Part shown: positions 16,282 to 22,200 of the stretch, piece by piece
Layout: every line of letters begins with the position of its first letter
How positions within the stretch are numbered: position 1 is the stretch's first letter
Assembly (NCBI RefSeq): GCF_041146795.1
Contig: NC_135176.1
Span: 12,089,286 to 12,153,285, forward strand
Direction of reading: 5' to 3'
Origin: Maylandia zebra
Taxonomy: Eukaryota > Chordata > Actinopteri > Cichliformes > Cichlidae
DNA: 64,000 nt
The notes under the pieces: model-generated
Seen by the model: the letters and a program-made list of their open reading frames with translations, nothing else
What the model was told of the DNA's origin: nothing
The model's database searches: none
Made by a program: the position numbers and the translations under genes

Positions 16282-19200
16282 TTAGCAGGAACAGCCTCCT
16301 TCACTGGTAGGTTGCTCTGGTGGTTTCTCCAGCTTAATGTCAATCACTGAAAGGTTTAGGAGTTAAGAAACAACATTGAAAAGGAACTCTGAAATGCATT
16401 GGCATTGATTAAACAAATAAATAAATTAATAGCTCTAGATTTCTGCTCAAGGAAAGACAGTCACACTTTTTTGGCACAATGGTCCAAAATGTCCCATTGG
16501 TGTTCAATTAGCCTGAGATGACCGTGATTGTAAATGCCAGAACGTTTTACATTATTTTCATGATCATTAAAGTAGTCAGTGACCACATGTGCTGTACAGG
16601 TAGAGGCCATTTTCACACTACAGCAGTGGTATTGCCCAATTCACATGTATTGGTTTATGACACATTCACAATAAATTACAAAGGGACTCTCCTATAATGG
16701 AGCACTTGTTGATGGTGGGAAGGAAGAAATAGCTTAACAGAAAGAGATCTCTGGCAAAACCAGGCACCAAAAGGGTTGAGGTTTTTAAGTTTTAAAATAA
16801 AGTTCTTAGTTTCAAAAATGAACTTGTTAATTTTTAAAGACCCTCCCCCAACTAAATATTTTTCTATTTGCTGAGTCATTAAGCAAGACAATTTAAAACT
16901 AATACTGTTAACATATACTGCATTCTCTCTCTGCATGAGACAGAATGCAAAGCTGGTCTTCCACCAGAAAAGCTTCTAGTTGTTGGGCTGCTGGGGAGTT
17001 AAGAGTGCTATCCACCCACTGTACTGTGTATATGGCGTGCCAAAGTTGGAAAGTCTTTCAGCTCTACATGAACTTCTGTGGGTGTTAGCTGAAGTTTTTA
17101 CCTTTTAATGGCAGGAATAAATTATCATCGTTCAGATATTTTACAAGATCAGATGCTTCAACTCAATGTGACGACTCATACTGGTCTCCATTTAACTGAG
17201 GTCAGTATTTCACCACTTATTGCTAGACAGAATATTAAAGTAATCTTAAATATTCTTATGGACACATGATGGCTTATGCTATAGTTACATGGCAAACTTA
17301 TCAAAGCTGAAGTCAGTAAAAATCATAACAACATCTTTATAACTCAGTCTGAGTTCAGACTTAGGCACGTTTCTAGGAGCATGACTGACTAATGTGAATT
17401 CACTGTCTGCTCTGATCTGTATCAGGACAAACTTCAAAACCTTTCAAGTCTGTTTCATACCCTCCAAAAATAGACCATCAGTGCAGAGTGTCTTTGATAT
17501 TATACTCATTAAAACAGGCATCCAGCTGAATCTCAATAGGTGTCCTCACTGGTAAAACAAATCTAGAACGACATGTGGGTTAAGCAACAATAGTGAGATG
17601 TCACAATTCTGCACTTGATTCTCCCTGTGGCCGTGCTTATCCATATGACAGACATAAGAGGGCAAAGAGACCTCTGACTCTGCTCTGTCATGTCAGATGC
17701 AGACACTGACATGTACACAAAAGGATACTGTCCTCTCTACTCTTGTCCTGTGTGGTGTCCATGCCAGGGAGGGCAGCTGCCACACGACGGAAAAGCTAGA
17801 GGGAAAGAGAACCACATGTATTCTTTCAGACAAGGAATATAGCGAGGGCATGATAAAAAATACAAAATGAAATTGGCACAGCATGTTGTGTATAATCCTA
17901 ATATTAACTGATCAAGCATAAGGTCCACTTGAAACTCACACAGAGAAAGACACCCAAGAGAGATTTATCAAATTTGATCTCAGTTTAGCAGCTTGTGTCT
18001 CTGACACTGTAAACCAATTTCTGTGCTGCATCGGTGATTTGAAAAGAGGATGGAGCTGAGCTTTAGTGACATCTTCCATTGACAAAGCTTGGAGGATTTT
18101 AAGCGATGAATGGATCCATTCATAAAATTCAAGAGAAATGTATGATGATGCTCAGCATCCCCTGCCCCCACCAAAGAGCGTCATGGAAGCAGACTTATGA
18201 CATGCAGAGTTCACAGCAGCAGTAACACTATTGCTGTGGTGATCAGTGCTGTGCAGGTTGTTGATTTGCAAACTCTGGTCCCCATCTCTAAGACTTTGTG
18301 ATAAAAGGTTGGCCAATACAAATCATTACAGGGGGGAGAGAGCTTGAAAAACAACCAGTTCTCTTCACTAGTGACCAGTGGAAACTGATGTTTAAAGCAC
18401 ACCTTTTGCACACATGCGTGTGAAATAGAAGCCAATCAGAAGAGAGGACTATGAGAACACATACACATGTAGGTGCACACGCTCTACCTGTTTGACATTG
18501 TAGCCTGTCTTTGCACTTGTTTCAATAAACAGAACATTCATCTCTTTCGCTCTCTGTTCTCCCTCCTCTGTGGTTATCTGTCTGTGATGAGCCACCGCGA
18601 ACAACACACAAACACCCACCAGGACACGCACATACCCCCACAAACATCAACACAGAGACAGGGGAAAAGAAACACAGACACTGTGATTATGTTGAAGAGC
18701 ATTAACAAGCCGTGCCCTTCCTGCTGCGGCTGCCACCACTGCCCAGCACCAAAGGTTTCCCAGTAAACTTCCTGGAAAAACAGGAAGAGAAGTGAAACTT
18801 CCAACATCTCAACCATAAATGTTATATTTTCTGTGTTTGACTGAAAAAAAACAGGGTTTTGGAGATCCAAGGCATTGCTAGGCCAAGACGAGTAAAAAGT
18901 TTGTAAATAAGCTTTTAGAGGAGCTTGCAGGTAACAGGGAAAAGCCATACACGAGACTGACACCCACACACTCTCATCACCTTTAGCAAGAAAGTGATGA
19001 ATACTTGTTTTATTTAAAGAAATACGCACAAACAAGAGCAATTTAGACTAAGAAGCCCTTTTCAGACATGCACTCAATTCTGTTAATTAGATGGCATCTA
19101 AACGCAGAGGTTACAAACGCACATCACTTCTCCACCTTTGAGTTGCTCAGCTCACTAAAAGACATGATTGTTGTGGATAATCCCCTAAACTATAATAATG

Positions 19201-22200
19201 TGAGGGGAGGAAAAAATAAAGTTTTGGCATGAGACATCAGCTTTCAGCTTTTGTCCATGGTCTCACTGCCAGAAATACTGCAGAAGCCACAAAGCCACTC
19301 CTTTGATACATATGTTAAACAGGCTTTTTTATTCCACACGGGACAAAGTCCAGCATCTACACTGGTCCATAAAAATCACAACCTACAGTGTAGATTTAGT
19401 GGTTCACTTAGTGGTCACTTATAAGCTTGGGGCAACCGTGGCTCAGGGGGTTGGGAAGCTAATCTGTAACCAGACGGTCGCCTGTTCGACCCCCTGCTCT
19501 CTGTCCTGGTCGTTGCGTCCTTGGGCAAGGCACTTTACCCTACCGCCTACTGGTGTTGGCCAGAGGGGGCGATGGCACGACATGGCAGCCTCACTTCTGT
19601 CAGTCTGCCCCAGGACAGCTGTGGCTACAACTGTAGCTTGCCTCCACCAGTGTGTGAATGTGAGAGTGAATGAATAGTGTGCCTAGAAAAAGCGCTATAT
19701 AAATGCAATCCATTATAATTATTATAAAATTGACCTAAGTGTTTATGGTTGCAATTGCATATATACAGAATGTGGCGTAATAACCCCCCAGAATAATTTG
19801 GGACACTATATCCTACTTACTATAGTGTGAAATTTGGCGCATAGCACACAATAAAATCATGATTACTGTAGCTTGTTCTGTCAGAGTGGGGATGTTTGAA
19901 AGAAGCGTTGATGAGTATTAATGTAAAAGAAAAGCTCCATGTCCAAATACCAGATCAAAAATTTTATGCAATCCATGTCTGAAAAGGGGCAACTTCAGGA
20001 ACCTAGCCTGACTTTTATTTTCAGTGGGAGACCTTTGGAGGTGAAACCCAGGAGGCAGCATCTACAGCAGGGCGTCAGAGCACGGCTCACACACACACAC
20101 ACTCTTACCTGCTTTACGTTGTAGCCCGCTTTCGCACTAGTCTCAATAAACATTACATTTAGTTCTTTGGCTTTCCGCTCACCCTCTTCAATAGATACTT
20201 GCCTGTGGTAGATAAAACGGTTAAAAGACTCACAGCAAGAGACAATACAAATTCAAAAAAAGGCTTAAAAACAAACAAAAAAAACCCCAAAACAGGACAC
20301 TTTCAGGTATAATGCATGAAAGAAAAAAAATCAGTGAGGCCACCAGTAACAATCAATAACTTCACTTCTATGCTCTTCATGGAGTGCCTACTTTAACAAA
20401 GGCAGAAGGAGGGAAACACAGATTACCTTTTATCTGCAAGGTCTGTCTTGTTTCCCACCAACATAATGATGACGTCACTCCCTCTTTCTGTTCTCACGTC
20501 ATCAATCCATTTTGTGGTTTGCTGGAAAGAGTTGACATCTGGAAGACAGATGGAGATAAAAGGCCTCAGGTGAGAAAACACAGTGGTTAGTGACAGCAAG
20601 GCAATAAGCAAAGAGAGTTACAAGCTGAAAAATGTGCAACTTTTTTTTTTAAATTAAAAAGAAAAATATGCTTCGGTCATACTAGTGTATTTAAATGGAA
20701 TCAATGCATTCCTCAGCATCAACGATGTGAATAACCTAGGGCACTCCCAGTGGACAGGTGAGCCACATACTTGTAATGTCGTAAACTACGACTGCAGCTG
20801 CAGAGTCTCTGATGTAACTTGGGATGAGGCTACGAAATCGCTCTTGCCCCGCTGTGTCCCACAGCTGCAACCTAATCTGTGGGGCAGGAAGGGAACGGGG
20901 ATGGAAAAAAAAAAAAAAAAAAAACAAAACAAGAAAAAAAAAAAAAAAAAAGAACAAGATGAAAATGAAACAAGAAAAACAAATAGACAAATGGGGTAAG
21001 TTTATGGGACAAAAAAAATTAATAAAAGGAAATAAAGTTGGACTAATGGGAAAAGATAAAAAGAGAGAAAGGTGAGCACGTAGTTCATGCAGGCAGTGAC
21101 TAAGCACCAGAGAGAGCTAGCTTCCTGGGCCTTTGGGAGGGAAGAAAGAAGTAATCACCCTTCACTTGTCATCAGCCCTCCTCACTGGATCAAGTAAGGT
21201 GTTTAATTTCAAAACGGTGATGAGAAAGTAGATGAAAGGGTAGGAAGGAGAGGAAGAAAACTCGTGTTGAGGGAGGTATGAACAGAGAAAAGAAGGATTG
21301 TCCAGGGGGATACAACACTCCTGATCACAGTAGCAACGTACAAATGCTGTCTCTGTGTGTGTTAGAAAGAGCATAATTCAGTGGCTAAAGAAAAGCAACT
21401 GGACAAGAAGAAGAAGAACAAAAACGGAGGTACTGGTTGTGCCAAAAATAAACTTACTGTTCTGTCTTCAAGATACATAGTTTTCGACAGGAAATCAATT
21501 CCTATTGTGGCCTGAAAAAAAAAAAGAATCAACCAAATATTCACAGTCATTTCCAATGAGTATTGCTGTTGATATTAGGCATCATCAATGATTATTAAAG
21601 TTAAAAGTGGAGGTGTTAAGTCTCACTTGGTAGGTGTTGTCGAAGCTGTCGTACATGAACCTGGTGATCAATGAAGTCTTTCCCACTGCACAAACACAAA
21701 CAAGAAACTCTTAAAGAGTGCAATGACCACATGATCACTTTGATTTTGGAGAAGAATTAGGTACACCTTTTCCCCCGGAAAAAAGAACTGCATTTATAAC
21801 TGAATCTATTCTACATTTTCCCCCAATTAGAACAAAATTTAAAAACTGAAAATGCTTTTTACACTTTCTGAGCACCCAAAGTCTTCAAACAGATTATTTT
21901 ATCTGAACAACTGTCTAAAACCTAAACACATCTAATTTACAATAACATAAAGCTAGCCAGCCGCTTTTAACTGGTTCACTAATAATTTCAGCTGTAATCA
22001 AAATAATTATTTCGGGGCTAAATAAAAGCTACGCAGATCTCTGAAAGCTTGCAGAAATGAAATGTGTTTAAAGTTATTCAACCCAAAGCAGCTGCTGTGG
22101 CCCTTTTCCACAGATGATGACCACTAATAACAGAGTAAACCAAGCAGCTTCATGTCACACAACTCCCACTGCCCTCTTGTCCACTAAGCGTGTAGTGCAC

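Follow-up and report, generated by a model that had tools for sequence, protein, structure and literature searches.

The rab6a gene of the cichlid Maylandia zebra raises the question of why one gene should carry two neighbouring versions of a single exon, one of which resembles the corresponding exon of another gene, RAB6B. The gene lies within a stretch of 64,000 nucleotides (nt) on C10 (contig NC_135176.1, positions 12,089,286 to 12,153,285 of the forward strand; hereafter the window, whose own numbering is used unless another sequence is named). Searches by tblastn with human RAB6A and RAB6B, together with the reading of splice sites, showed that the minus strand carries the whole of rab6a, which begins with exon 1 at 24058 and has its stop codon at 16282. 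It has eight coding exons, with the sixth present in two copies. As stated in the initial annotation, both copies are 94 nt long and share the same phase; exon 6a (20202-20109) is of the RAB6A type, and exon 6b (18581-18488) is a RAB6B-like version of the same residues, 134-165. We interpret them, with a probability of about 0.86, as ancient tandem duplicated exons used alternatively in splicing, which yield two 208-residue Rab6A proteins differing at eight positions. Rab6 is a central Golgi GTPase, with RAB6A ubiquitous and RAB6B neuronal. To our knowledge, little is understood of which residues set RAB6A apart from RAB6B in function, and an exon swap that moves five RAB6B residues into RAB6A would isolate one block of that difference, testable in a single gene.

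Exons 6a and 6b are adjacent and flanked by canonical AG/GT sites. Both open with the third base of codon 134, directly after AG, and end with CAG before the GT of the donor (CAG/GTAAGA in 6a and CAG/GTAGAG in 6b). Their nucleotide identity is 72%. Splicing with either exon alone gives a Rab6A protein ending in CSC. The prediction that joint use would break the frame was confirmed, as inclusion of both shifts the frame and ends the protein at 184 residues, the stop lying 101 nt ahead of the last junction; a premature stop that far before the last junction is a target of nonsense-mediated decay by the usual rule. Omission of both gives a 156-residue product without the C-terminal cysteines. At a minimum, then, the reading frame would favour exclusive use under any splicing mechanism. 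Each mature rab6a mRNA would take one of the two exons, and messages with both or neither would be removed or useless. The intron between the exons measures ~1.5 kb in the window gene and ~0.4 kb in a second rab6a gene of this genome, on C2, so the crowding of splice sites is no evident cause of exclusivity. The window intron also holds a dispersed repeat (19440-19740), for which a first look gave 2548 candidates, and 40 genomic places were scored, comprising the window copy and 39 others at 86-94% identity.

All 31 full codons of the window 6a encode the residues of human RAB6A. Exon 6b departs from 6a at eight of them (V136I, S137T, I138T, R143Q, K144R, L148M, M151L and A159T), while the ETSAK residues are identical in both. 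The differing positions are taken to sit in helix alpha4, in the strand that runs into the nucleotide-binding motif ETSAK and in the loop that follows it. Alignments with PDB 2E9S and 8IJ9 showed that 6b carries the human RAB6B residues I136, T137, Q143, R144 and T159, as originally proposed. The sixth RAB6B residue of this exon, S149, is absent from 6b, which has N149.

When the 6b peptide was compared with the genome, 14 matches were obtained. The best six lie in four RAB6 genes, and the other eight have E values of at least 0.027, against 8.9e-14 for the match of 6b to itself. In the C2 rab6a gene, too, a 6a-like exon and a 6b-like exon lie about 400 bases from each other, and both have open frames and AG/GT sites. 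The 6b exons of the C10 and C2 genes differ at 14 nucleotides, 12 of which are at the third codon position and none at the second (were all positions equal, 12 or more of the 14 would fall at third positions with P = 8e-5). Two of these differences are nonsynonymous and 12 synonymous, giving a ratio of nonsynonymous to synonymous change (pN/pS) of 0.042, with no indel. The exon 6 pair of the two rab6b genes gives a similar 0.049, and the 6a pair of C10 and C2 gives 0.100; both 6a and 6b are therefore under protein-level constraint. The low pN/pS, the third-position bias and the intact splice sites identify 6b as a selected coding exon, under purifying selection, rather than a relic. The gap in E values, the recurrence of the pair in a second gene and the third-position bias likewise argue that the 6b match is not due to chance. 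The 6a exon of the C2 gene (C2:44763416-44763323) has 5 of its 31 residues different from human RAB6A and an unusual donor, GTTGGT. It looks less constrained, as if the C2 gene leaned on 6b.

The initial annotation had further suggested that the switch provides a RAB6B-like C-terminal half. Nineteen positions distinguish human RAB6A from RAB6B, six of them in exon 6. Exon 6b has the RAB6B residue at five of these six, or 5 of 19 overall. Of the 13 differences outside exon 6, the window gene agrees with RAB6A at nine, with RAB6B at one (K183) and with neither at three. The 6b isoform is identical to RAB6A at 190 of 208 residues and to RAB6B at 186, compared with 198 and 184, respectively, for the 6a isoform. 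The conversion of five differences to the B type stands, but the suggested extent was overstated, as exons 7 and 8 are mostly of the A type and the 6b isoform remains nearer to RAB6A. These counts describe a local swap of helix alpha4 and the post-ETSAK loop.

According to the available text of PMC10267580, Rab6 contacts Rab6IP1, GCC185, KIF20A and ELKS1 mainly through switch I and switch II, and ELKS1 also at the interswitch and L11/K13. All of these regions are encoded outside exon 6. With the effector sites elsewhere and ETSAK unchanged, normal GTP binding and core effector binding are expected of the 6b isoform, and the swap is expected to alter some other surface, or nucleotide kinetics, to a modest degree. 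The effect of 6b on the protein would be a fine adjustment, because the known effectors bind elsewhere.

The remaining two RAB6 genes, on C22 and C18, each have one A-type exon 4, one RAB6B-type exon 6 and an LDKP tail, and we regard this pair as the rab6b genes. In all four genes the internal exons have open frames and lie between AG and GT. Among matches with E<1 and >45% identity, the rab6b stretches examined showed no relic of 6a. With exons 4 and 6 set aside, synonymous sites have reached saturation in each of the six pairwise comparisons of the four genes, which makes the C10 and C2 rab6a genes old duplicates; their split would be at least as old as the teleost genome duplication. A gene tree from exons 1-3, 5, 7 and 8 weakly preferred C10 with C2, and the other two trees were not rejected.

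The initial annotation had left open whether the likeness of 6b to RAB6B reflects an old duplication or convergence. The six exon 6 copies of this genome were analysed over all 105 unrooted trees under three models: codon, partitioned, and general time reversible with gamma rates (GTR+G). The best or tied-best tree separates the two 6a exons from the two 6b and two rab6b exons. Pairing 6a with 6b inside the C10 gene gave approximately unbiased (AU) test values of 0.0016 (codon) and 0.012 (partitioned). As unrooted trees are unable to separate some duplication hypotheses, rooted tests were added, using a protein set with human RAB6A and RAB6B and with fly (2Y8E), yeast (9AYR) and Plasmodium (1D5C) outgroups. 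The exon trees group 6b with the RAB6B exon 6, and in the rooted set a single vertebrate clade of 6b and RAB6B was accepted (AU about 0.29). A 6a and 6b clade excluding RAB6B, as expected of a duplication after the RAB6A/RAB6B split, had an AU of 0.003-0.004 under three models, which supports an old duplication rather than convergence. A separate duplication of exon 6 in each gene was ruled out (AU at most 0.0007). A run with the fly as the only outgroup gave the same ranking, with the post-split duplication 17 log units below the best tree (AU 0.0023) and requiring 21 parsimony steps versus 16. At positions 144 and 159 the B-type residue is clearly derived, the outgroups having K and A. Taken together, these 31-residue trees are good but not overwhelming evidence for an early duplication. 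The pair would most likely have arisen before RAB6A and RAB6B separated, with RAB6B keeping the 6b type only and both rab6a genes of this genome keeping both. The human RAB6A chains examined are of the 6a type only.

The alternative that survives best is that 6b is a rab6b exon 6 copied into a rab6a intron, by ectopic duplication or conversion, after RAB6A and RAB6B split and before the two rab6a genes did, and is now spliced as an alternative. Early copying of this kind would group 6b with the RAB6B exon 6 equally well, and under the codon model, trees that place one or the other rab6b exon closer to 6b score level with the best tree. Placing 6b inside fish rab6b was not rejected by the Kishino-Hasegawa (KH) or Shimodaira-Hasegawa (SH) test in any of the three models, nor by the AU test under the Jones-Taylor-Thornton (JTT) model, but it was marginal by AU overall (0.044, 0.045 and 0.089). 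Such a copy must also have landed in the homologous intron, beside the homologous exon and in phase. Moreover, the two 6b exons fall together in the best trees, and they carry T138, as do fly and yeast, rather than the I138 shared by human RAB6A and RAB6B. We consider a later copy unlikely.

Far less probable is that 6b arose inside rab6a after the split and converged on RAB6B residues. The tandem position fits such an origin, and three of the five B-type sites vary among the outgroups (I136 in yeast; T137 and Q143 in Plasmodium), so some recurrence is plausible; convergence was nevertheless ruled out by the AU values and step counts given above for a post-split duplication. Most improbable of all is that 6b is decaying or remains unused in splicing: although its use is a prediction from the sequence and the pyrimidine tract upstream of it is moderate (13/22 in the window gene), the codon-position pattern and the intact sites of 6b in two anciently separated genes rule out a relic or pseudo-exon.

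Several points weigh against ancient, alternatively spliced exons as the explanation. Exon 6 provides only 31 codons. In the six-exon unrooted set, trees that split the two 6b exons were not rejected, and GTR+G retained the pairing of 6a with 6b inside the C10 gene (AU 0.25). In the rooted set, the unconstrained tree was better than the tree joining 6b to RAB6B by 1.5-1.8 log units. In the fly-only run, AU values were erratic among near-tied trees, and the strict tree with 6b sister to RAB6B had an AU of 0.035 at 0.19 log units below the best. Both the use of 6b and its mutual exclusion with 6a are inferred from the genomic sequence. Both 6b donors lack G at +5, as do other RAB6 donors, and a comparison of the C10 and C2 genes found no conserved intronic words near 6b above chance. 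Synteny markers gave no confirmation of the RAB6 gene relationships and no support either way. In two published reports of rab6a splicing in fish, the available text is silent on which exon is involved, and the relevant figure legend of one, a trout study (PMC8321248), refers to intron retention and exon skipping, not to exclusive exons.

That trout study, based on Iso-Seq, places rab6a among the top brain-specific splice forms, and the second report describes rab6a in Acanthochromis as differentially spliced during a heatwave, the type of event not being given in the text available (PMC8933327). If 6a and 6b are alternatives, rab6a probably makes two slightly different Rab6A proteins. The choice of 6b would be regulated, and a bias towards brain would be the most likely form; this is a guess, encouraged by the trout data, that we place slightly short of even odds. 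Between the C10 and C2 genes there is an excess of shared words upstream of 6a and downstream of exon 5, in the same intron, which is tentatively put down to T-rich sequence.

The remaining exons of the window gene, located by tblastn, splice sites and the spliced translation, are also on the minus strand: exon 1 with the start codon (23989..24058), exon 2 (21627..21685), exon 3 (21458..21511), exon 4 (20771..20876), exon 5 (20427..20538), exon 7 (17729..17795) and exon 8, which encodes the C-terminal CSC and the stop (16282..16346). The gene qualifies as a RAB6A, since its protein is closer to RAB6A than to RAB6B, its exon 4 is of the A' type (I62, A87, A88), and its tail reads LEK..CSC. No relic of an A-type exon 4 was found in the window among matches with E<1 and >45% identity. 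The last intron, after exon 7 (17728-16347), has the donor GTATCCTTTT / GTATCCTTT, which we take to be U12-type. The GTATCCTTT donor is common to all four RAB6 genes of this genome.

For synteny, the Ribosomal_S10 (MRPL48-type) and TCRP1 (FAM168-type) families, which we take to represent neighbours of human RAB6A, gave no match on C10 or C2. The sole near match was a weak SRPRB-profile match on C18, 0.66 Mb from rab6b (E 5e-5), which may be another small GTPase. Searches for relatives in viral and prokaryote collections gave 23 and 591 pattern matches, respectively, of which none was confirmed. The window also contains a connexin coding exon on the plus strand (42733-43659; Pfam PF00029, E 7.9e-82), with its nearest paralogues on C14 (85%) and C19 (76%); the C2 matches listed are ~8 Mb away from the rab6a gene there. 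Downstream of the C2 rab6a, a stretch (C2:44758906-44759228) resembles C10:12046850 and C10:12162972 in a translated search and is probably, at a guess, a transposon remnant.

The C2 rab6a gene has two copies of exon 4 (C2:44764955-44764223), one of the A' type (I62, A87, A88) and one of the A type (V62, T87, I88). As it also carries 6a and 6b, this gene could make four isoforms. We tentatively suggest, while holding it somewhat less likely than not, that the vertebrate ancestor had one Rab6 gene with exon choices 4'/4 and 6a/6b and four isoforms, and that combinations were fixed differently after genome duplication. RAB6B would then be 4 with 6b, human RAB6A 4'/4 with 6a, and one fish rab6a 4' with 6a/6b, and the C2 gene would still hold the full two-by-two set. 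The exon 6 part of this scenario is supported; for exon 4 the tree models disagree on the age of the pair. If the exon 6 pair does predate the gene split, splice isoforms were parcelled out to duplicate genes, with a fish gene keeping the older arrangement. If the wider scenario holds, neuronal RAB6B began as a splice isoform and later became a gene in its own right.

Among known systems, the nearest is the alternative exon 4 of RAB6A/RAB6A' (Echard et al. 2000, as cited in the available text of PMC11529276 and PMC10267580), which concerns the same gene and a splicing choice that alters few Rab6A residues. It involves a different exon, however (residues 62, 87 and 88, against exon 6 here), and the only exon 4 found in the window is of the A' type; the earlier view that the exon 6 switch is a separate one is thereby borne out. 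More generally, tandem duplicated exon substitutions, described in the available text of PMC9741552 as mostly ancient and fine-tuning, likewise involve homologous neighbouring exons of which one is used per message; in rab6a, one of the two exons matches, in addition, an exon that is fixed in a paralogous gene. The term 'rab6' was not found in the main text of that paper, and no description of the rab6a exon 6 pair was found in the available text of the literature searched, although automatic database isoform models may already list some fish transcripts. A tandem exon pair is thus a known kind of arrangement, and the rab6a case is apparently undescribed.

In comparison with RAB6B itself, 6b shares five of the six exon 6 differences, whereas T138, M148, N149 and L151 of 6b are not RAB6B residues, and the rest of the window protein is RAB6A-like except for K183. 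Of most interest is the match between an alternative exon of one gene and an exon that is fixed in its paralogue, together with the retention of both exon choices in the C2 gene. A similar internal and external paralogy was reportedly found in tropomyosin (Irimia et al. 2010), where alternative exons of one gene are said to correspond to fixed exons of its paralogues; the likeness to rab6a lies in that match, and the difference in the gene family.

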